IMG/VR virus record: IMGVR_UViG_3300045977_000271
Coordinates: 1 to 41,301 of that record
From: a virus
Reading direction: 5' to 3' (one strand)
Length of the DNA: 41,301 bases
The notes beneath the pieces were generated by a model. That model saw nothing but the letters and a program-made list of their open reading frames with translations. It was not told the DNA's origin and made no database searches. Positions 2,807 through 28,208 of the stretch are shown piece after piece. Position numbers and translations under genes: made by a program. Each line of letters starts with the position of its first letter. The stretch's first letter is position 1.

Positions 2807-3951
2807 TGGCGATCCCCATTTCCACGCAGGGTAAGCTGTACGCGAAGACCGAGGCGTCTTACGGGGATGCCGCGGTCACGTTCGCGTCGACCGATGCGCT
2901 GCGGCACATCAGCAGCCAGTTCCAGTTCGACCCCTTCAACCGGACCCCCTCCACCGAGAAAAAGGCGTCGGCCGGCAATTTCGCCATGTTTGACCGGCGC
3001 ATCACCGCGGCCTTGAGCGGCCTGGAGGCGGTCATGCGGCCGTCCGGCACGCTCAACACCCTGCCTGAGGCCGACGAGATCTTCCTCAACGCGTTCGGCG
3101 CCCGGACGAACGTCACACTCGACACGCTCGTCTCCTCGGGCGGCACGACCACCGGGGCGACGTTGGCGTCAGGCGCCGGCCTGGCCGTCGGCGACGGCAT
3201 CGTCCTCACGCGTGGCGGCGTCAAGTACGTCCGCGTGCTCCAGACGGTGGCGGGCGCCGCGGTGACCTGGGCGCCGGCGCTGCCTACCGCGATCCAAAAC
3301 AGCGAGGTCGTCCGAGGGTGCATTACCTATAAGTTGGCCGCCGAGCTCTCGGGCTCGCTCGCGCTCTTCCACATCGTCAGCACCTTCCGCCGGCTGCTTC
3401 TCGGGGCCGTGGTCGACCGCTTCGCCATGACGTACGACGCGAACGAGGAGGGCCGCTTTACGGCCTCGGGACCCGCGCAGCGACAGCTGACGGCGGGCCT
3501 GCCGTCCGATCCCGCGGGCTTCACGTCGGTCGGCGGGAACGCCCCCTCGGGCCTGGTCGGCGAACTAATGATCGGCGCGACGGCGTACCTCGACCGGCAG
3601 GTCATGTTCGACCTGACGAACAAGTTCAAGGTCCGGAACGAGGAGCAGGGCAACGCGGGTCTGGCGACCGGCGCCTATCGCGTCGGCACGCGTGAGATCA
3701 CGGTGTCGATCGAAGCCTTCGCGGAAACCCAGGCGACGCTCTACGACCTGGCCGTGGCCGGCACGAACACGCCGGTCCTGAAGCAGACGGGCCGCACGGA
3801 AGGCAACATCGTCGCCGTGTATTGCCCGAACGTGTATTTCAAGGTCCCCGAGACCACGGACGGGGACGACGAGGCCAAATGGTCCTTCAGCGGGACGGCG
3901 CTCGAATCGGCGCTCAACGCTGGGAACGAAATGACGCTCGTGTTCGCGTAA
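2806..3951 (+). CDS. Major tail tube protein
   Basis: 381 aa. The N-terminal segment (MAIPISTQGKLYAKTEASYG) is typical of phage tail tube proteins that begin with a short lead-in to a tube beta-barrel. The rest is beta-rich, with an inserted region near residues 105-155 rich in G/T/V that could be an Ig-like or decorated loop. It would polymerise around the tape measure to form the tail lumen. No sheath gene follows, which argues for a non-contractile siphovirus-type tail. Overlaps the previous stop by 1 nt. Confidence 0.75.
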   Translation: MAIPISTQGKLYAKTEASYGDAAVTFASTDALRHISSQFQFDPFNRTPSTEKKASAGNFAMFDRRITAALSGLEAVMRPSGTLNTLPEADEIFLNAFGARTNVTLDTLVSSGGTTTGATLASGAGLAVGDGIVLTRGGVKYVRVLQTVAGAAVTWAPALPTAIQNSEVVRGCITYKLAAELSGSLALFHIVSTFRRLLLGAVVDRFAMTYDANEEGRFTASGPAQRQLTAGLPSDPAGFTSVGGNAPSGLVGELMIGATAYLDRQVMFDLTNKFKVRNEEQGNAGLATGAYRVGTREITVSIEAFAETQATLYDLAVAGTNTPVLKQTGRTEGNIVAVYCPNVYFKVPETTDGDDEAKWSFSGTALESALNAGNEMTLVFA

Positions 3952-4086
3952 GACCTCGGTTCGCTTGCAGTAGTCGGCGCTCCATCGCCCATGGCCGTGC
4001 GCACCTCCTGGCGCCGCGGTCGTCGGCTCCCTTCGCGGGCGTCACGCCTCCAACCGGTACGTTGTTCATCCTCGCCCTGGAGGCCT
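3952..4086 (+). other. Spacer between tail tube and tail-chaperone genes
   Basis: 135 nt. The chaperone frame could start upstream at ATG 3991, but the extra residues are Arg/Ser-rich and look non-coding. I see no clear terminator or promoter. Translation more likely starts at 4087, behind GGAGG at 4079-4083. Confidence 0.5.
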
Positions 4087-4845
4087 ATGCTGCAACTCGA
4101 TTCCACCCGACCCGCCACGTTTCACATCGATGATCCGACAACCGAGCAACTCGTCCCGGTCAAGCTCCGCGTGAAATGGCTCACCGAGCAGGAGTACACC
4201 GCGTTTGCCAGCGGCATGAAGCGGCTCGACGATCCGCCGTCCCTGCGGCTGCTCGGCGGCCGCGCGTCGAGCGGCGAGGAGCAGGAGAAGGACGACAAGG
4301 GCCGGTACGTCATCTCTGAGGCGGAGATCATCGACCGGCGCCGCACGGAACTCACCCCGGAGCGGCGTGAGGCGTACGACCGCGCCGACCAGGAAGATGA
4401 GGCGTTCGTCCGGGCGTTCACGAAGGACGCGATCGAACGGTTCGTGACGGTCGTCGCGGGCGAGCTGGCGGTCGACGGTCAGCCGGTCACGTCAGGCGCC
4501 GACCTCTATCGCGTCTTTTGCGCCCGGGCGGACCTGCTCTTCGGGCTCGTCACGCTCATCCATCAAGAGAACACGATGAGTCCCGTCGCAAAAAAAGCGT
4601 GGAGGTCGCTGTCCGATTTCAGGCGTATCTCGAGCGAGCACCAGTTGGCTCAGGCTGGGCAAAAACTGGCGGAAGTTGCGGCCGGTGTCGAGACCTCGGG
4701 TACTGCGAACAACGGAGCTGCGACGGGATCGACCGAGGCCCCGTCTGGCTCAGCGGCGACCTCCTCCTCCACGCCTGCCCGGTCTCGGCGATCACGGACG
4801 AAGCGCGCGCCGTCGTCGACCTCTTCTATCGGTGCTACGCCGTGA
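4087..4845 (+). CDS. Tail assembly chaperone, short form (gpG-like)
   Basis: 252 aa if ATG 4087 is used (GGAGG at 4079-4083, short spacing). The N-terminus is beta-rich (RPATFHIDD..VPVKLRVKWLTEQEY) followed by a charged helical region. Position directly before the tape measure and a slippery A7 run at 4590-4596 identify it as the G member of a G/GT pair. After the slip site the zero frame becomes Ser/Thr/Ala-rich low-complexity sequence (ATSSSTPARSRRS), which probably reflects weak selection on this unshifted tail. Confidence 0.7.
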   Translation: MLQLDSTRPATFHIDDPTTEQLVPVKLRVKWLTEQEYTAFASGMKRLDDPPSLRLLGGRASSGEEQEKDDKGRYVISEAEIIDRRRTELTPERREAYDRADQEDEAFVRAFTKDAIERFVTVVAGELAVDGQPVTSGADLYRVFCARADLLFGLVTLIHQENTMSPVAKKAWRSLSDFRRISSEHQLAQAGQKLAEVAAGVETSGTANNGAATGSTEAPSGSAATSSSTPARSRRSRTKRAPSSTSSIGATP

Positions 4846-5045
4846 CGTACGGGGCGATGGGCGGCGCGTGGTTTGAACAGCGGTCGCTGCCGTGCGCCGG
4901 AGGGGCCGGCGAGCAACCGGCCCGCCTCATGCAGGGTCTCGTGGTCGCGGCGCGCGTGGCGAATGAAGTGCTGCAGGAAATGCTGAAGGCGAAGAAACGG
5001 GATCGGGATCGGCGCGCGCGCGACTCAGCGAGGGCCTCGTCGTGA
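4087..5045 (+). CDS. Tail assembly chaperone, -1 frameshifted long form (gpGT-like)
   Basis: 170 codons are read from ATG 4087 through the AAA codon at 4594-4596. A -1 slip continues from 4596 in the overlapping frame for 149 codons to TGA at 5043-5045, giving about 319 aa. The shifted part has sensible protein character: a Cys-rich stretch (GSCGRCRDLGYC) then helices (DEARAVVDLFYRCYAVTYGAM, VVAARVANEVLQEML). The product would hold tape measure in solution and recruit tube subunits. The next gene starts at GTG 5042, overlapping the long-form stop by 4 nt, as expected if the long form is the coupled upstream gene. Confidence 0.7.
4590..4596 (+). other. Programmed -1 ribosomal frameshift site (A_AAA_AAA)
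   Basis: In the chaperone reading frame the codons are GCA AAA AAA GCG, so the heptamer A-AAA-AAA is phased exactly as X-XXY-YYZ. Both tRNAs can re-pair after a one-base slip. The frame entered by the slip is open to 5045, next to the tape measure start. This is the standard arrangement of siphovirus tail chaperone genes. I did not find a clear stimulatory hairpin by eye. Confidence 0.75.
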
Positions 5046-7855
5046 GCGAAAAACAGATCTCGCTGAAACTTATTTTCAAGAACTTCGCGAGCCAAGAGCT
5101 TGAGAACGTCAAGCGCCAGCTCGGCGGGCTCGGCGGGCCGGTGTCGGCGCTCCAGAATCAGTTCAGCGGCATCACGACGCAACTGAGCCGGTTCGCCGGC
5201 CCGGCCGGGGTGGGCCTCGCTGTGGGCGCGCTCGTCAAGCTTGGCAGTGACGCGGTCAATCGCGCCGAAGAGATCAGCGATCTCGCGAGCAAGTTGGCGG
5301 TCAGCACCACGGCCGTGCAGCAATGGGGGCACGCGGTCAAGATGTCCGGCGGCGACATGGGCACGCTGGACGCCGCGCTGTCGAAGATGAACGCCAATCT
5401 GGGCGAGGGGAGCAATTCGACCAAGCAAGCACTGACCGATGTCGGCCTCAAGTTCAAAGACATCCGCGCGATGGCGCCCGAGCAGGCCTTCGAGACGATC
5501 GTCGGGGCGATCGAGAAAATCGAAGACCCGATGATGCAGGCGCGCGTCGCGGTCGAACTCTTCGGCCGCTCTGGGCAGGACCTGCTGCCCGCGATCCGAA
5601 ATGGCTTTCTCGACGTAGCGGAAGCCGCCAAAGTGATGGATGCGGCGACCGTGGAGAGTCTCGACCGCGCGAAGGATGCGCTGCAAAAGGCCAAGGACGA
5701 CGCGACCACGATGGTCGGCGGCATGGTCGGGGCCTGGCAGAAGCTCCAGGATACGCAGAAGTTCGTCCTGCAGCAGATGGTGATTCAGGCTGCCACCGCG
5801 GGGAAAGGCCTTCAGGCCGGCTTCGCGCATCAACTTGGCGAGGTGTTGCCGGCAGCCGCGGCGAAGTCGCAGGCGTCGCTGAAGGCCCTGGCGGACACCG
5901 GGCTGCCCTCGGCCGCTGAGGCGACCGCGCAGTTTACCGAGAAGAACAAAGCCGCGACCGACGCGATGATGAAGCAGATCGCCGCGCTCGACCAGTACAA
6001 CGCGCGCGTCGACTCGCTCGTGGTGAAGTTCAGTGGCAAGAAGGTCGCCGACCAAATTCGCGAAACCGCCGACGCGGTCAAGCGCCTCAAGGGCAACATC
6101 ACCGGCCCTGAACTCATCGAGCTGCAGCACCAGCTCAGCGCCTGGGTAGTAGAGGGCCGGCAGTTGCCGCCCATCCTCGACGACATCTGGGCCAAGAACA
6201 TCTCGATCGCGGAAGTCGTGCCGCAGGTGACGACCGACATCCGCGATCTGACCGCGGGCTTCACCGATCTCTGGCCGCAGATGAAGCGGTCAGCGGAGGC
6301 CTCGACCGCGTTCGTCGGCTCACTGAAAGAACTGCAGAAGCCGCTGGGGCCGATGCTCGACAACATCCTCGACAGCATGACGAAGGTGAAGCTCCCGCCT
6401 CCGTCGGCCGCGCAGAAATCCGGGCTCGCGCTGATGTTCCAGGACGTTGCCAACGATCTGCCCGACGTGATCCAGAAGGCGTTCCAGGGCGGCGGGAGTG
6501 TCGGGAAAAGCGTCGGCGGGTCGCTGATGTCGTCGATCATCGGGAGGAAAGAAGACTGGACGACGTTCTTCAAGGCCAGCGGCCTCGGCACGACGATCGG
6601 CGGCGCGCTGGGCTCGGTGATTCCCGGCCTCGGGACGCTCCTCGGCGGCGCGCTCGGCGGTCTCGTCGGGAAGCTCTTCGGCCCGTCGAAGACGCAGATC
6701 GCCGGCCGTGAGGCGGACAAGGAGATCGACGCCATCCGCGCGAAGCTCGTCGGCCCGAACGGGCTCTTCGGCTCGTTCAACGAGTTGCAGTCGGCGGCGC
6801 TCGAGCTCGGCCTGACCTTTTCCGACGCCTGGGTCGGCCGCGGCGTCGATGGCCTGGCGCAGTTGACGAGCCGCCTGGAGCAGTTCGAGCAGAAACAACA
6901 GGCCGTGAAGGCGCTGCAGGACGCGCTCGGCGGCGGGATCGATCGGCTTTCCAGTGCGGTGCAGGTCTTCGGCGGCGTCGTGCCCCCAGCACTGCGTCCG
7001 ATGGTCGAGAGCTTGCTGACCTCGAAATCGCTGACCGAGCAAATGCGCGGCGCGCTCCGTGGCATGACGGAGGATTCATCCTGGCAGAGCATGCAGGCGC
7101 GCGCCGAGGCGCTCGGCATCAATCTGCGCGACCTGGGCGAGCACTTCTCACAAGCGCGGCTCGGCGAGATTGCACAGGGATACGCGAGAGACATCGCGGC
7201 GTTCTCGGAGCAGGGCGCCAACATGGAAGGCGTGCTCCGAGGAATGGCCGACGAGCTCTCGACGTTGTTCAACGACGCGAAGGCCACCGGCGCCGAGTTG
7301 CCCGAGACGCTGCGCCCGTGGATGCAGCGGTTGGTCGACGCCGGGCTGCTCGTCGATGACGCTGGGCGGAAACTGGAAGACCTGAACGGCGTCACGTTCG
7401 AAGAGATGGAAGATCGCGCGCTGGGCGCCGTCGTCGACATCCTCGAGGAGATCCGCGACCTGCTCGCGCGCGGCCTGCCAGCGGCTGCCAGGGAAGGCGC
7501 AGAGGGCATCGCAGGGGCCTTCCGGGATCTGCCGCCGGTTGAGATCGACGTGGTCGCCCGGCGTCCGCACGTGTACGCGGAAACCGACGACAGCGGCCCG
7601 CCGATCTTTGATACGCCGATGCGGCGCGTGACCCGGTCCGGCTGGGGCTGGCTCAACCCGGGCGACGTCGCCGGGATGCCGCACCTGACGCCCGGCGCGA
7701 CCGCCGGCGGCGGCGTCAACCTGTCAGTCACCATCAACGCGAACGACGCCGACTCGGTCGCGCGCTGGATGCGACGCACCGGCGGCGACGCGTTTATACA
7801 ACTTCTGCGCGAGTCGGGCGTCCATCGCGCGGGGATGCAGCGGGTGTTGTCGTAA
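5042..7855 (+). CDS. Tail tape measure protein
   Basis: 937 aa from GTG 5042, by far the longest tail gene. N-terminal half is helical and Ala/Lys/Gln-rich. A Gly-rich hydrophobic stretch near residues 520-560 (IGGALGSVIPGLGTLLGGAL) is the membrane-active type of segment found in tape measure proteins. Late part is again helical, and the last about 100 residues are Pro/Gly-rich. It sets tail length; the usual rule of about 0.15 nm per residue would suggest a tail near 140 nm, an inference. Its stop overlaps the next ATG. Confidence 0.9.
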   Translation: MSEKQISLKLIFKNFASQELENVKRQLGGLGGPVSALQNQFSGITTQLSRFAGPAGVGLAVGALVKLGSDAVNRAEEISDLASKLAVSTTAVQQWGHAVKMSGGDMGTLDAALSKMNANLGEGSNSTKQALTDVGLKFKDIRAMAPEQAFETIVGAIEKIEDPMMQARVAVELFGRSGQDLLPAIRNGFLDVAEAAKVMDAATVESLDRAKDALQKAKDDATTMVGGMVGAWQKLQDTQKFVLQQMVIQAATAGKGLQAGFAHQLGEVLPAAAAKSQASLKALADTGLPSAAEATAQFTEKNKAATDAMMKQIAALDQYNARVDSLVVKFSGKKVADQIRETADAVKRLKGNITGPELIELQHQLSAWVVEGRQLPPILDDIWAKNISIAEVVPQVTTDIRDLTAGFTDLWPQMKRSAEASTAFVGSLKELQKPLGPMLDNILDSMTKVKLPPPSAAQKSGLALMFQDVANDLPDVIQKAFQGGGSVGKSVGGSLMSSIIGRKEDWTTFFKASGLGTTIGGALGSVIPGLGTLLGGALGGLVGKLFGPSKTQIAGREADKEIDAIRAKLVGPNGLFGSFNELQSAALELGLTFSDAWVGRGVDGLAQLTSRLEQFEQKQQAVKALQDALGGGIDRLSSAVQVFGGVVPPALRPMVESLLTSKSLTEQMRGALRGMTEDSSWQSMQARAEALGINLRDLGEHFSQARLGEIAQGYARDIAAFSEQGANMEGVLRGMADELSTLFNDAKATGAELPETLRPWMQRLVDAGLLVDDAGRKLEDLNGVTFEEMEDRALGAVVDILEEIRDLLARGLPAAAREGAEGIAGAFRDLPPVEIDVVARRPHVYAETDDSGPPIFDTPMRRVTRSGWGWLNPGDVAGMPHLTPGATAGGGVNLSVTINANDADSVARWMRRTGGDAFIQLLRESGVHRAGMQRVLS

Positions 7856-23240: not shown

Positions 23241-24317
23241 TCAGGCCAGTTTCGCGGCCACACCGGCCAGCTTGGCGAGTTGAAACGGCGCGTATCGCCT
23301 GGTCATCCGCGGACTGGTGTGCCCGAGGAGCTCCTGCACGTCGGCCAGATCGGCGCCGGCCTGCAGGTAGGCGGTCGCGACCGAGTGCCGTTGGTCGTAC
23401 GGCCGGACGTGCGCCGGCCCGAGCCCGCGGGCCTTGGCCTCCGCGCGGCACGCCCGCTGAAACGCCTTCCGAAACAGGTTCTTGTCGTAGGGCTGGCCGA
23501 GGAGCTTGCGGTCAATGAGCACCGCCCACGCGGCCAAGCCGTGACGATTGAGCGGCACGGTCCGAAAGCGGCGACCACCTTTGCCGGTCGGGATAAAACA
23601 CACCGCGCGCTCGAGATCGACGTGGTCACGCTTCATCCGGGAGAGCTCCGAATTACCGCGCATGCCGGTCCACAGGAGCACGCCGGCGATCGCCTGATGG
23701 TCCGGGTTACGCAGCCGCGTGATCGCCGCCTGGAGGAATGCCAATTGCCGCGCGCGCGGCTCCGGCGCCGGTTCCTTGAACTTCAGCACCTCGCGGACCG
23801 GATTCGGCGCCCCCTTCCCGTCAAGGATGGTGTACAGGTGCAGGAGCGCGGTCCGGCGGTGATTGCACGCCGAGGCCGAGAGCGGCTTCGCCTTCGTCTT
23901 GTACGTCTTCGTGCGTGGGACGTACACCAGCACCGGGCCGCGGTGGCGCCAGGCTTGGAGCTGCTCGCGAATCATGGCGGCCGTGATGTCAGCCCGGGTG
24001 GTGTCGCCGAAGACCTCGCGCCAGACGTAGAGATCCCGCTTCCGCCACTCGTACGTCGGCATGGCTTCGATCTGCCGAAGATACGTCGCGACGTCGGCGG
24101 CGAAGCTGTTCGGCCGGGCGACGACCCCGTCCGGCTCGCTGAGCCGCTCTCTGGCCTGGACGCGCTGGTCCTCGCGCCACTGCTTCATCGCGGTGACGGT
24201 CGCATTTGCGCCGAACCGTTTCGAGGCGAGCTTCGTGCGCCCGCGGCCGATCGGGATCCGCACGAAGGCGCGGAAGCCTGTTGGCGTCTTGACGAGACCC
24301 GGGCCGAGATGCGTCAC
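23241..24317 (-). CDS. int: Tyrosine-recombinase integrase
   Basis: 358 aa from GTG 24317, chosen because it overlaps the upstream stop (GTGA); extending upstream adds only Arg-rich residues inside the previous gene. Catalytic residues are visible: Arg220 (WTGMRGNSEL), Lys246 (PTGKGGRR), Tyr307-Arg310 (RPYDQRHSVAT, with Tyr in place of the usual His), His333 (LLGHTS) and nucleophile Tyr342 (RRYAPF). An N-terminal SAM-like core-binding domain spans about 70-170. It sits 84 nt from the tRNA-Asp core, the normal placement for an integrase using that site. It would drive integration and, with an excisionase, excision. Confidence 0.93.
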   Translation of the reverse strand: MTHLGPGLVKTPTGFRAFVRIPIGRGRTKLASKRFGANATVTAMKQWREDQRVQARERLSEPDGVVARPNSFAADVATYLRQIEAMPTYEWRKRDLYVWREVFGDTTRADITAAMIREQLQAWRHRGPVLVYVPRTKTYKTKAKPLSASACNHRRTALLHLYTILDGKGAPNPVREVLKFKEPAPEPRARQLAFLQAAITRLRNPDHQAIAGVLLWTGMRGNSELSRMKRDHVDLERAVCFIPTGKGGRRFRTVPLNRHGLAAWAVLIDRKLLGQPYDKNLFRKAFQRACRAEAKARGLGPAHVRPYDQRHSVATAYLQAGADLADVQELLGHTSPRMTRRYAPFQLAKLAGVAAKLA

Positions 24318-24667
24318 AGGGACGCGCCGAGCGCGCCGCCGCAGTGGGCGCAAAAGCGTGAGGTGGCGGGATTGTACTTGCCGCACGCACTACAGAGCAG
24401 CGCCGGCGCGGGGGCGACGGGGGCGGCAACCGCCTTCACCGGCGCGGCTGTGGGCGGGTCCACGGTCACCGCCCAGACCAGCGCCACAACCCAGCCGATA
24501 AACGACCAGCCGAGCAGTAAGTTCACGAGCGCGATCGCCGCGGTGTTCTGCTTTTTCTTCACGAGCGCGATGATCGTTGGCAGGATGTAGACCACCAGCC
24601 CGCCGATGATGAACGCGAGCAGTAGCATCATGCCGACCGCGCCGGAGGTTGCGTCAGAGGCGGACAT
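24314..24667 (-). CDS. Superinfection immunity protein (Imm_superinfect-like) with zinc ribbon
   Basis: 117 aa from ATG 24667, preceded on its strand by AGGAGG. Two membrane segments: MMLLLAFIIGGLVVYILPTII and LVNLLLGWSFIGWVVALVWA. The LLLGWSFIGWVVALVWA segment is the hallmark of the superinfection-immunity family related to T4 Imm, which blocks DNA entry of incoming phages. A Pro/Ala linker leads to a C-terminal zinc ribbon (CSACGKYN..FCAHCG). Overlaps the integrase start, so the two are co-translated. Protective role is known for some relatives and inferred here. Confidence 0.75.
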   Translation of the reverse strand: MSASDATSGAVGMMLLLAFIIGGLVVYILPTIIALVKKKQNTAAIALVNLLLGWSFIGWVVALVWAVTVDPPTAAPVKAVAAPVAPAPALLCSACGKYNPATSRFCAHCGGALGASL

Positions 24668-24677
24668 GGGTGGCCTC

Positions 24678-25262
24678 CTAGAGACCGTACTTCTTACGGA
24701 CCTTCTTCGCGAGCACCTCGCCAAACTGCATGCAGTAATTCGTGCCCCACTCGATGTCCGGCTGGCGACGCTGCCCGGCCATGAACCCGGCGACGGTGGC
24801 ACCGATGTAATACGCCTCCAGGTTGAGGTTCATTGTGGCAGTGACCGAGGGCACGCGCGGGTTCACCAAAGCGGCGAGCGCACCATGCGTCTCGTGCTCC
24901 TCGCCGCCGTCCCAGCCGGGTCCGACGGGCTTAGCGGACCAGTCGTCCGGTTGTTGGCGTACCGGCATCGCCGGTGGCTCGGCGTGGCGTTGGGCGTGCT
25001 TCGGAGTCGCGGAACGGGGCATCGTCTCCTCGTCAGCTTCGGTGCTTTTTGCGAGTCCCAGTTCGTCCATGAGACGACCGAGGCTGTGTCCGACCTCGCT
25101 GAGCGCGCGAAGGATGTGCCGTTTGAGGCTCTCTGGCATCGGGTGTTCCGCCGTGCTCAAGGCGGTGCAATTTCTTTCGCACAGTTCGGGCGTCATCGCC
25201 CGCGCCGGTCTCGGCGGGAGCGATGGGTGTCGGTACACGAGGATCGGCTTCTGGTCGAGCAT
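24678..25262 (-). CDS. Unknown phage protein
   Basis: 194 aa from ATG 25262, which has GGAGGTG 6 nt upstream; an in-frame GTG at 25271 lies inside that Shine-Dalgarno. A helical region at about 45-70 (ESLKRHILRALSEVGHSLGRL) is followed by a disordered His/Pro/Glu segment and a C-terminal part with EWGTNYCMQFGEVLAKKVRKK. No domain recognised. Its first 230 nt overlap the 3' part of the broken repressor frame. Confidence 0.5.
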   Translation of the reverse strand: MLDQKPILVYRHPSLPPRPARAMTPELCERNCTALSTAEHPMPESLKRHILRALSEVGHSLGRLMDELGLAKSTEADEETMPRSATPKHAQRHAEPPAMPVRQQPDDWSAKPVGPGWDGGEEHETHGALAALVNPRVPSVTATMNLNLEAYYIGATVAGFMAGQRRQPDIEWGTNYCMQFGEVLAKKVRKKYGL

Positions 25263-25570
25263 GGGGAGCACCTCCGTTCGATGTTGGGTGCTCTATACCA
25301 GATCCACTTTCGTCACGCCTTTGTAGTAGCGTTTCCGGGTTTTCCCCGAATCCGCGCGACAACTCGACGATACGAAACAGAGCCGCCCGCATTTCTGCCA
25401 GGCGATGCTCGAAGTCGGTAATCTCTGTCTGAAGAGCGCCCGCTGCAGCTTGTACTCCTGGGCCCTGACGGCCTAGGTCAGACCCGAGCGCCGAGAAGAC
25501 ACGTTCCAGCGAGAGGTCTAAGGCCTGGGCGACTAAGGTCAACTTGTCGATGGTCGTGTTCCGATTTAAC
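25033..25570 (-). pseudogene. XRE repressor, C-terminal fragment (separated by transposon)
   Basis: The frame entering at the transposon boundary reads NRNTTIDKLTLVAQALDLSL, the second half of an XRE helix-turn-helix domain. A coiled-coil-like segment (ALQTEITDFEHRLAEMRAALF) and a long Arg/Pro-rich tail to 25033 follow. The start of the domain is on the far side of the ISL3 element at 27739-27907. Joining 27739-27907 to 25033-25562 gives exactly 699 nt, 232 codons plus stop. The last 230 nt overlap the next gene, so the true C-terminus is uncertain. Confidence 0.8.
25563..25570. repeat. Target-site duplication, left copy (GATTTAAC)
   Basis: Exact 8-bp direct repeat of 27739-27746, directly abutting the left inverted repeat. 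Eight bp is the usual duplication length for ISL3-family elements. Confidence 0.9.
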
Positions 25571-25594
25571 GGGTATTCGGACTCTTGTGTTGAA
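25571..25594. repeat. Left inverted repeat of the ISL3 element
   Basis: Matches the right end (27715-27738, inverted) at 19 of 24 positions: identical blocks TATTCGGA and GTGTTGAA with a variable middle. Confidence 0.88.
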
Positions 25595-25651
25595 ACATGA
25601 CTTCTGAGACAATGCCTCGGTTCGGATTAACGTGTGGAGGATGATGCTCCG

Positions 25652-26392
25652 ATGTTTGTTCTGTCGCTCTTCCCCGGCATCGGCTTGTTCGATATGGCGT
25701 TCGAGGAGGAAGGCTTCTGCGTTGTTCGGGGACCTGACAAGCTCTGGGGTGGCGATATTCATCGCTTCCATCCATCTGCAGGAAAATTCGATGGGATCAT
25801 CGGCGGGCCGCCCTGCCAGAGCCACAGCCGCTTTAGGCATTTGGCGGCGGCGACCGGCAAGAACATCGCGCCGGACCTGATTCCCGAGTTTGAACGGTGC
25901 GTAGCTGAGGCCCGGCCGTCTTGGTTCCTGATGGAGAACGTGACCGACTCGCCCGAGCCTGTCGTCGACGGCTACGAGGTGTGCCGGTTCATTCTGCAAA
26001 ACAGGCATCTCGGTGAAATCCAGAACAGAGAACGGGCCTTTGCCTTCGGGACAACGGGAGCACGCCAGGACCTGCGCCGCTACATCCAGCTCGCACCTCT
26101 GGAGAGCGCCGAGTGGTGTGGGGCGATACTCGCATCCGGTGGCCGGCGACCAGGCACAGAGTCCCGCCGCGGCAAAACGCGTGGCGCTTGGCATGGCTTC
26201 TGCGGCCCGCGCGAGTTCGCCCATGCCCTGAAGGCGCAAGGACTGCCCGAAGATTTTCTGGCTGACTCGCCGTTCAAGATGAAGGAACGGTTCCGAGTCG
26301 TAGGTAACGGTGTGCCGCTTCCTATGGGACGCGCCTTGGCCCATGCGGTCAAAAGAGCCATGTATCCACAACTCTGCGAAGCCACGGCATAA
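25652..26392 (+). CDS. C5-cytosine DNA methyltransferase (transposon passenger)
   Basis: 246 aa from ATG 25652, with GGAGG at 25636-25640; an upstream in-frame GTG (25634) would overlap that site. Motif I is LFPGIGLFDMAFEEEGF, the catalytic motif IV is GGPPCQS with Cys55, motif VI is ENV (95-97), motif VIII is QNRER (124-128), and motifs IX/X are near RVVGNGVPLPMGRALA. It is compact for the family, with a short target-recognition region of about 90 residues. All core motifs are present, so it is probably active. The recognition sequence cannot be read from the protein. It may mark host or phage DNA and shield them from restriction. Confidence 0.92.
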   Translation: MFVLSLFPGIGLFDMAFEEEGFCVVRGPDKLWGGDIHRFHPSAGKFDGIIGGPPCQSHSRFRHLAAATGKNIAPDLIPEFERCVAEARPSWFLMENVTDSPEPVVDGYEVCRFILQNRHLGEIQNRERAFAFGTTGARQDLRRYIQLAPLESAEWCGAILASGGRRPGTESRRGKTRGAWHGFCGPREFAHALKAQGLPEDFLADSPFKMKERFRVVGNGVPLPMGRALAHAVKRAMYPQLCEATA

Positions 26393-26398
26393 CGCCGA

Positions 26399-27736
26399 GT
26401 GACGAACTTCCTCTATCTGCCCGGCTGGGAGGTCACGAAGGTGCAGCGATCGGCGCAGGAATACATCGTGGAGGCAACGTTCGGCGCGCAGCCTGCAGCC
26501 TGCACCAAATGCGGCGTGGTGGGCGAACTGTACCGGCACGGCACGAAGGTCACTGCGTTCAGGGACGCCCCGGTCCACGGCAAGCAGGTCACAGTGCAGG
26601 CCAACCGACAGCGGTATCGGTGCCGCGCCTGCAACCAGACCTTTCTGCAGGACGTGCCGGACATGGACGAGCAACGGCGCATGACTGTTCGGTGCCTGGA
26701 ATACATCGGCGAGCAGGCGCTGCTGCGGCCGTTCACGCACGTCGCTGACGACATCGGTGTCCACGAAAAGACCGTCCGTAACATTGCCGGCGAGCGCATT
26801 GAGCGGCTGATGGCGGAACACAGGCTCAGAGCCCCACGGATGCTGGGGATGGATGAAGTGTCGGTCCTGCGGAAGCCTCGAGCGGTCTTGACGGACATCG
26901 GCAGACGCGCGCCCATTGACCTGCTGGAGAGCCGGACAAAGCCCGTCGTGGCGCACTGGCTCCATCATCTGCCCAACCGTCAACGCGTGGAGGTCGTGGC
27001 GATGGACATGTGGGCACCCTACCGTGACGCCGTGCGGGCGGTACTGCCAGCAGCGTCCATCGTGGTGGACAAGTTCCACATCGTGCGGATGGCCAGTCAG
27101 GCCCTGGAAGTCGTCAGGAAGGCCACAGGGCGCGACCTGGAGCCACGAGGGCGGCGCCAGCTTGTTAGAAGCCGGTTCTCGCTCCTGCGGCGTCCCAAGC
27201 AGCTCTCGGCCAAAGCGGCGCTCGATCTTGATGCGTGGTTGGTGAACGAGCCGACGCTCCGGCACGCCTACCAGGCCAAGGAAGCCTTCTACTCGATCTG
27301 GGATCTGAAGACGAAGGACGACGCCCGTGAGGCGTATTCCCGCTGGCTCGCGGAGATGCCAGCCGACATCCAGAAACCCTTCAAACCCGTGGTGACTGCC
27401 ATGAAGAACTGGGACACGGAGATTTTCAGCTATTGGGACCACCGCATCACGAACGCGTACACCGAGGCCATGAACGGCGTGTTGAAGCTCGTCAACAGAA
27501 TGGGGCGTGGCTATGGCTTCAACGTCATTCGAGCCCGCGTCCTCTTTGGACGACAGGACAGCGACTTGGAGGAATGCCAAAGCTGTCAACGGTCCTTCAA
27601 CTCGAAGGGTGTTAGTCGATTCGTTCATCGGGATAACCAAATCATTGGCCCCGTCCTTTTGTGTCCCGACTGCCGCCGATTCCACACGGATCGATGGTTC
27701 ACGCGTGATGGCACTTCAACACTTAAATCCGAATAG
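26399..27736 (+). CDS. ISL3-family transposase with extra C-terminal zinc finger
   Basis: 445 aa from GTG 26399. N-terminal zinc finger has C35, C38, C75 and C78 (CTKC, CRAC), followed by a helix-turn-helix. The catalytic core has D152 (MLGMDEV), D203 (VVAMDMWAPYRD), VVDKFHIVRM and E356 (YTEAMNGVLK), the DDE layout of ISL3. Beyond the usual end (NVIRARVLF) about 65 residues add a second Cys pair set (C393, C396, C422, C425). The stop codon TAG lies within the right inverted repeat. Catalytic residues look intact, so the element may still move. Confidence 0.93.
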   Translation: MTNFLYLPGWEVTKVQRSAQEYIVEATFGAQPAACTKCGVVGELYRHGTKVTAFRDAPVHGKQVTVQANRQRYRCRACNQTFLQDVPDMDEQRRMTVRCLEYIGEQALLRPFTHVADDIGVHEKTVRNIAGERIERLMAEHRLRAPRMLGMDEVSVLRKPRAVLTDIGRRAPIDLLESRTKPVVAHWLHHLPNRQRVEVVAMDMWAPYRDAVRAVLPAASIVVDKFHIVRMASQALEVVRKATGRDLEPRGRRQLVRSRFSLLRRPKQLSAKAALDLDAWLVNEPTLRHAYQAKEAFYSIWDLKTKDDAREAYSRWLAEMPADIQKPFKPVVTAMKNWDTEIFSYWDHRITNAYTEAMNGVLKLVNRMGRGYGFNVIRARVLFGRQDSDLEECQSCQRSFNSKGVSRFVHRDNQIIGPVLLCPDCRRFHTDRWFTRDGTSTLKSE

Positions 27737-27738
27737 CC
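27715..27738. repeat. Right inverted repeat of the ISL3 element
   Basis: Inverted partner of 25571-25594; overlaps the last codons and stop of the transposase gene. Confidence 0.88.
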
Positions 27739-27746
27739 GATTTAAC
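27739..27746. repeat. Target-site duplication, right copy (GATTTAAC)
   Basis: Exact copy of 25563-25570, directly outside the right inverted repeat and inside the repressor coding frame. Confidence 0.9.
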
Positions 27747-27907
27747 TCGATCCGGTTGACTGTTTCCTTGTTCACGCCCGCGAGCTCCGCGAGCGCTTCA
27801 GTGTCCAACCCTTTCGCGGTCCGGGCGGCACGAATCACATCGCCGTAGGGCATCGGCGGCATTGTGCCAGACGGATAATTCCGTAGCAAGACGGCAAGCC
27901 CCGTCAT
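27739..27907 (-). pseudogene. XRE repressor, N-terminal fragment (disrupted by transposon)
   Basis: Starts at ATG 27907 with AAGGTG about 5 nt upstream. It reads MPYGDVIRAARTAKGLDTEA and LAELAGVNKETVNRIELNR, the first helices of an XRE helix-turn-helix domain, then runs into the transposon and stops after a few foreign codons at 27716. The rest of the domain is at 25033-25562. It faces away from a Cro-like gene across shared operators, which identifies it as the CI-type lysogeny repressor. As it stands only a 63-aa truncated peptide would be made. Confidence 0.85.
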
Positions 27908-27992
27908 ATCAACACCTTACGGAAACAATAAAAAATCCGTAGAAAATCCTTGACACGATACGGATTCGTTCTTACCATACGGACTAATCCGT
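27908..27992. promoter_or_regulatory. Divergent early control region with TACGGA operators
   Basis: Five copies of the half-site TACGGA / TCCGTA occur in 76 bp: 27918-27923, 27936-27941, 27959-27964, 27978-27983 and 27988-27993. The last two form the palindrome CATACGGA-ctaa-TCCGTATG (27976-27995), which includes the start codon of the Cro-like gene. The segment is AT-rich against a GC-rich background. It is the expected operator region between CI-type and Cro-type genes. Confidence 0.8.
27950..27978 (+). promoter_or_regulatory. Promoter for the rightward early operon
   Basis: Consensus -35 TTGACA (27950-27955), 17-nt spacer, -10 TACCAT (27973-27978). Transcription would start near 27985, only about 8 nt before the ATG at 27993, so the mRNA would be nearly leaderless. 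Operator half-sites lie in the spacer and over the -10. Confidence 0.7.
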
Positions 27993-28208
27993 ATGACGCT
28001 CAAAACAATACGTGAGGCCTTGGGAATCAGTCAGGTCGAACTCGACCGCCGAGCTGGACTCACGCGCGGATCAGTCGGCGACATCGAGTCCGGACGCAAC
28101 TCCAATCCATCGTTTTCCATCTGCGTGAGCATCGCCGAGGCGTTGCGCCGCGCAGGCGCGAAGGGCGTGGACGCCGAACAGTTGTTCGCGTCTCGCGTGG
28201 CCTCGTAG
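27993..28208 (+). CDS. Cro-like XRE-family regulator
   Basis: 71 aa. Single helix-turn-helix: IREALGISQVELDRRAGLTR then GSVGDIESGRNSNPSFSICV. ATG 27993 lies within the operator palindrome, consistent with autoregulation. First gene of the rightward early operon, divergent from the repressor. By analogy with lambda it would repress the repressor and early promoters. With CI broken it may be the only remaining regulator. Confidence 0.8.
   Translation: MTLKTIREALGISQVELDRRAGLTRGSVGDIESGRNSNPSFSICVSIAEALRRAGAKGVDAEQLFASRVAS

Follow-up and report, generated by a model that had tools for sequence, protein, structure and literature searches.

The element and its insertion site

The 41,301-bp virus contig IMGVR_UViG_3300045977_000271 (hereafter the window, i.e. 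the whole stretch of DNA analysed) contains a 2,168-bp element (25571-27738) with two intact genes on the same strand, a C5 cytosine DNA methyltransferase (MTase) and, 6 nt beyond its stop codon, an ISL3-family transposase whose own stop codon falls within the right terminal repeat (Table 1). The terminal inverted repeats are imperfect, start with GG as expected for the ISL3 family, and match at 19 of 24 positions (GGGTATTCGGACTCTTGTGTTGAA on the left, GGCTATTCGGATTTAAGTGTTGAA on the right). They are enclosed by two exact copies of the octamer GATTTAAC, an AT-rich 8-bp target-site duplication of the kind made by this family. Re-measurement confirmed the repeats, the duplication and the length given in an earlier note on this DNA, whose boundaries of 25563-27746 are exact for the duplications and not for the ends of the element itself. 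Of the 13,679 pairs of identical 8-mers spaced 0.5-6 kb apart in the window, only the GATTTAAC pair is abutted by 24-mers with an inverted match of 19/24, the runner-up reaching 16/24; a chance inverted repeat was ruled out, as the ends of the element are the unique best among all these pairs. The GC content of the two genes is 61-62%, compared with 66-67% in the phage flanks.

Table 1 Features of the element and its surroundings in the window
Feature	Position	Strand	Evidence
Phage tyrosine integrase (lysogeny module)	23241..24386	-	PF00589 (1.4e-21), phrog_1
Interrupted repressor, 3' part	25033..25570	-	ORF from joined flanks; alone without Pfam match
Target-site duplication, left copy, GATTTAAC	25563..25570	.	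Exact match to 27739-27746
IRL (left terminal inverted repeat), GGGTATTCGGACTCTTGTGTTGAA	25571..25594	+	19/24 against right end
Inner (subterminal) left-repeat copy, TTCGGATTAACGTGTGGAG, element positions 51-69	25621..25639	+	15/19 match
Cargo C5 cytosine DNA methyltransferase, 246 aa	25652..26392	+	PF00145, phrog_116, motifs, AlphaFold/Foldseek
ISL3-family DDE transposase, 445 aa	26399..27736	+	PF01610, PF14690, PF13542, NF033550
IRR (right terminal inverted repeat)	27715..27738	-	Inverted match to IRL
Target-site duplication, right copy, GATTTAAC	27739..27746	.	Exact match to left copy
Interrupted XRE/HTH_3 repressor, 5' part (N-terminus)	27747..27907	-	ORF from joined flanks

Both genes proved to be complete, as had been claimed for them. 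The transposase matched PF01610 (3.9e-61), PF14690, PF13542 and NF033550 (2e-91; 306.7 bits against a cut-off of 180), has the zinc ribbon and HTH of an ISL3-type DDE transposase, and retains the catalytic residues D152, D224 and E356. Its nearest relative was 53% identical, and no solved structure was found for it. The protein ends in a Cys/His-rich C-terminal extension. One ISL3 subgroup likewise has a C-terminal extension, which in one locus (L002:142-1551) is a recognisable HNH endonuclease domain (PF01844, 1.5e-9), and the extension of the window transposase (27550-27736) resembles a degenerate Cys/His version of that domain.

The MTase matched PF00145 (3e-19), and the C5 motifs I, IV, VI, VIII, IX and X (FPGIG, GGPPCQ, ENV, QNRER, QGLP and GNGVP) are all intact in an alignment of 20 relatives. 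The AlphaFold model (pLDDT 89.6) is that of a complete small C5 MTase with M.HaeIII and M.HhaI as the nearest solved folds in Foldseek, and its variable target region is short and modelled partly with low confidence (residues 174-181). The conserved start is the ATG at 25652, the longest ORF beginning at a GTG at 25634. No restriction gene accompanies the MTase between the ends of the element, which hold only the MTase and the transposase, and the enzyme is thus solitary. The ends, the duplication and the transposase profiles together support the proposal that an ISL3 element carries this MTase as a passenger within its ends.

The host contig encodes tail, tape-measure, Erf, DnaB, replication-initiation and integrase proteins, so that the reported insertion in a phage is borne out and the phage, with its integrase, repressor, Erf, DnaB and tail genes, is a temperate one. 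Joining the flanks with a single GATTTAAC restored an open reading frame of 232 aa on the minus strand, and its HTH_3 domain (5e-10) spans the joint. The element therefore interrupts a CI-like repressor gene beside the integrase. A search for the empty site of this phage with the joined repressor protein gave no relative in viral contigs, and a DNA search against phage records for that site returned only a 69-bp match. This match (24466-24534) adjoins the integrase; many Mycobacterium phages have DNA that is 81% identical to it, annotated in some of them as a superinfection immunity gene. The stretch 27930-28010, which separates the interrupted repressor from a divergent HTH-like ORF beginning near 27993, was seen by eye to contain several TACGGA/TCCGTA half-sites resembling phage operators. 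The 41,301 bp of the window yielded no tRNA.

Related elements in phages and their cargo

For an overview of related elements, viral contigs were searched with nine ISL3 transposases, which gave 80 loci, and 76 loci (75 of these and L005) were scanned for ends. With clear ends defined as a match of at least 16/24 together with a matching 8-bp duplication (one duplication was 7/8 owing to an N), 50 of the 76 loci qualified (48 distinct) and 26 did not; some of the IMG/VR loci may come from prophage edges or from host DNA (e.g. L284, with TetR and SfLAP genes). The distance from the left end to the transposase gene was 358-2,983 bp (median 819) in all 48 distinct phage elements, and the duplications across the family were 74% AT, against a background of 46%. 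Domain matches among the cargos included N6_N4_Mtase (twice), Dam, DpdA, NADAR, PAPS_reduct, YopX (three times), Lar and others, and PHROG matches comprised DNA methyltransferase, queuine tRNA-ribosyltransferase and phosphoadenosine phosphosulfate reductase, the latter two belonging to the moron/auxiliary category; numerous small cargos had no known domain. Genes for modification or anti-restriction made up 5 of 49 cargos and at least 3 of 148 neighbouring phage ORFs (p = 0.02, with a background count that may be incomplete), and MTases alone 3/49 and 3/148, respectively (p = 0.16). MTases and the other modification or anti-restriction genes are a minority of the cargos, and their excess over the neighbouring phage ORFs is weak and suggestive at most.

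As a control, 498 bacterial genomes from the phyla of Mesorhizobium and L036 yielded only eight close transposase relatives, one of which had an exact 8-bp duplication, its cargo including a phage BRO-N gene. Exact 8-bp duplications also surround unrecognised cargo-bearing ISL3 elements in Caulobacter phage DMCA (L335), Vibrio phage Seahorse (L331) and Escherichia phage Fraca (L333), and the transposase of the last bears the annotation of an HNH endonuclease domain protein.

The left ends of these elements share a common anatomy. An outer repeat and an inner copy of it were present in all but one (n = 51); 43 elements have the inner copy at positions 50-52 and 7 have it at 61-64, one helical turn further; that of the window element lies at the conserved position. 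Among 12 element pairs whose transposase genes share at least 88% DNA identity, 11 showed no detectable similarity of cargo, as in one pair with 95.8% identical transposases, one carrying a TGT-like and the other a PAPS-reductase-like cargo. In such close pairs identity stops at the inner repeat or a few bases past it and restarts at the transposase start codon, and we infer that the slot between these two points is exchanged as a module. The stop codon of the upstream cargo ORF lay -60 to +20 nt from the transposase start in 43 of 53 elements, most commonly as a 4-nt overlap, where picking the nearest ORF favours short distances. Since the transposase starts at or adjoining the cargo stop, the two are probably carried on one transcript and appear to be translated in a coupled manner. 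The total -35/-10 score of the left ends was not above that of shuffled sequences (7.35 and 7.20), giving no consensus promoter there, and TATAAT-like boxes cluster at position 40.

In the annotated phage collection, "DNA methyltransferase" and "transposase" stand side by side in Vibrio phages. The phages K256 and K251 g2 have in common a 2,484-bp element (99.9% identical, ends 19/24) consisting of a D12-class MTase and a transposase, with different duplications (GAAAAGAG and GAAAAAAG) and different sequence around the two insertions. Phage K242 and four others are without the element at the K251 g2 site; K243 and K245 are empty-site phages, and K288 and K290 carry the element. K242, exactly 2,492 bp shorter, represents the empty site: the joined flanks of K251 g2 measure 6,651 bp, which is the length in K242, with 5 mismatches, none closer than about 1 kb to the junction. 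The insertion in K251 g2 lies at the beginning of what K242 annotation gives as a transcriptional regulator gene, comparable to the repressor insertion in the window. Between the transposase start and the right end, a further copy on a Vibrio anguillarum plasmid shares 88% DNA identity with the phage element; this copy has a PAPS-reductase-like cargo instead and a duplication of its own (TATTTAAT). The element at two sites, the empty site and the plasmid copy together show that an MTase-transposase unit with fixed boundaries transposes and that its cargo is replaced. Units of this kind, for which a search had been recommended in the earlier note, are thus found in K256 and K251 g2, and their movement between phages is supported in Vibrio phages. 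The window's own element had no further copy among viral contigs, searched by transposase, MTase or end pattern, or among plasmids, so that the case for its mobility is built on its duplication and on these relatives.

A close relative of the window MTase (88% protein and 84% DNA identity) was found in virus contig L006, between a DDE_Tnp_IS1595 transposase and the right end of an IS1595 element (3903-5772) whose ends match at 21/24 positions and whose flanking octamers match at 6/8. The C5 motifs are kept in this relative as well, and the two MTases were sisters in a maximum-likelihood tree (support 100/99), indicating that closely related genes ride in two IS families. The L006 octamers (3895-3902, TTCTTGAA; 5773-5780, TTCAAGAA) are reverse complements of each other rather than direct repeats, meaning that the inverted repeat extends into the flanks. 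Varied passengers occur in a clade of IS1595 elements from viral contigs (L132-L211), several with exact 8-bp duplications; among them are a 442-aa N4/N6 MTase (L142), a C5-like protein (L146) and, at a locus without an exact duplication (L134), a 435-aa C5 MTase. The MTase family otherwise occurs mainly in viral contigs and scattered bacterial genomes with no ISL3 or IS1595 transposase nearby. Phages with the methylase and no transposase, which had been named as speaking against a mobile passenger, do exist among distant relatives (at most 58% identical); they fit a cargo taken from among the genes circulating in phages and leave mobility unrefuted.

What the cargo may be for

We read the window element as a phage-adapted ISL3 transposon of the ISPpu12/ISPst2 type with an exchangeable cargo slot whose contents benefit the carrier, and give this account a probability of roughly 0.78. 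The unit comprises an outer left repeat, a 26-nt spacer, an inner left repeat, one or more cargo genes, the transposase and a right repeat, and the transposase would move it as a whole into AT-rich sites with formation of an 8-bp duplication. Cargo is exchanged faster than the transposase diverges by about 5-10%. In the window, such a unit has inserted into a temperate phage's repressor gene and has presumably inactivated it. Most likely it is the carrier, the phage and hence the element, that gains from the cargo, a reading suggested by the several cargos with a role in DNA modification or restriction (C5, N4/N6, Dam and D12 MTases, DpdA, Lar). In the window copy, the predicted MTase activity would methylate phage DNA against host restriction, and restriction evasion by this cargo is plausible.

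The earlier note had proposed a self-methylating transposon that could mark its own and its carrier's DNA. On a rival reading of this kind, the MTase would serve the transposon itself by marking its DNA or controlling transposition. There is a parallel in Tn10, whose transposition is controlled by Dam; the MTase and transposase of the window are adjacent and probably co-expressed, and ISL3 as well as IS1595 elements repeatedly have MTases as cargo, of several different chemistries. Most relatives, however, carry unrelated cargo, including groups with near-identical ends and transposases, and methylation is therefore not needed for the transposon cycle. With so many other genes in the same slot of relatives with like ends, self-marking cannot be the general function, and as a design point of the element it was not upheld. 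We regard this proposal as quite improbable; judged by the relatives, the MTase is no special feature of this kind and is one of the various occupants that a general cargo slot can have. It is still harder to believe that an ordinary ISL3 insertion came to lie beside a phage MTase that was then enclosed by a fortuitous left repeat. Relatives of the MTase are indeed mainly phage genes without a transposase, but the inner repeat specific to the family is present in the left end at its conserved position, the 8-bp duplication encloses both genes, the GC content of the element differs from that of the flanks, and the joined flanks restore the repressor gene with no MTase between. This explanation was rejected on the inner repeat and the restored repressor ORF.

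A further alternative is that any translated ORF would serve in the slot, as long as its translation is coupled to that of the transposase and so drives it, the function of the cargo being irrelevant. The start of the transposase at the cargo stop leaves no room for a leader of its own, and the great diversity of the cargos, many of them tiny and without known domains, would be expected of such filler. Against it, many cargos are intact full-length genes, several belong to phage accessory ("moron") families, and a bacterial relative of ISPpu12 holds a coherent set of cadR, a cation transporter and lspA; we consider neutral filler unlikely.

Returning to the cargo that benefits its carrier, near-constant transposases joined to differing phage genes suggest that these elements are vehicles carrying accessory genes, DNA-modification enzymes among them, from phage to phage. 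We lean towards a broader view of phage ISL3 elements as "cassette" transposons, in which a slot defined almost to the base would be refilled with unrelated accessory genes and translation of the transposase would be tied to the occupant, making them dedicated gene shuttles of phages. Phage mosaics gain and lose single morons by mostly unexplained routes, and a cargo-swapping element would be a concrete one. It may also explain why closely related methyltransferases occur in unrelated phages within unrelated IS families. Such elements are active in sequenced phages, and the near-identical Vibrio phages with and without the MTase copy form a natural experiment. The elements also make it possible to ask whether phages escape host restriction by means of mobile DNA-modification genes.

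Comparison with known elements

Passenger-bearing IS1595 elements are described in ISfinder. Those from viral contigs resemble the window element in their MTase passengers, above all in the L006 gene and also in the other MTases of L134, L142 and L146, and differ in having the unrelated DDE_Tnp_IS1595 transposase and other ends (GGGAATTATATAC...). The K251 g2 and K256 element (OZ195767, OZ195684), annotated merely as two separate genes, has an ISL3 transposase preceded by a DNA MTase, ends of the same kind and an 8-bp duplication, whereas its MTase is a D12-class N6-adenine enzyme and its transposase is 32% identical to that of the window. Classic ISL3 elements with a transposase only (L326-L329, in two bacterial genomes) share the transposase family, the GG..CC ends and the 8-bp duplication, but measure 1.34-1.40 kb and have no cargo, with about 115-130 bp upstream of the transposase gene.

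ISL3 elements with passengers are represented by ISPst2 and ISPpu12 (PMC6305408, PMC4133298, PMC4447125). ISPst2 (GGGTATCCGGAATTTCTGGTTGAT) carries arsR and a permease gene as passengers (PMC6305408), and ISPpu12, which turned up again in a Klebsiella plasmid with a length of 3,372 bp, has the regulator gene tnpR (PMC4133298). Nothing on phage-resident cargo-bearing ISL3 elements or MTase passengers was found in the open-access literature searched; cargo-bearing ISL3 elements are known in bacteria, and phage-resident ones with swappable phage cargo were absent from the literature searched. The ends of both known elements (GGGTAT-CGGA...) are nearly equal to those of the window element, their duplication is likewise 8 bp, and their DDE_Tnp_ISL3 transposases are about 43% identical to that of the window. 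Their cargo lies within the ends, upstream of the transposase gene and on the same strand, precisely as the window MTase does. By ends, duplication, transposase and gene order, the window element is accordingly grouped with ISPpu12 and ISPst2. It differs from both in residing in a phage and in carrying a solitary C5 MTase instead of metal or efflux genes, and from ISPpu12 in lacking tnpR, while its relatives in phages, unlike these two, exchange cargo between near-identical transposases.
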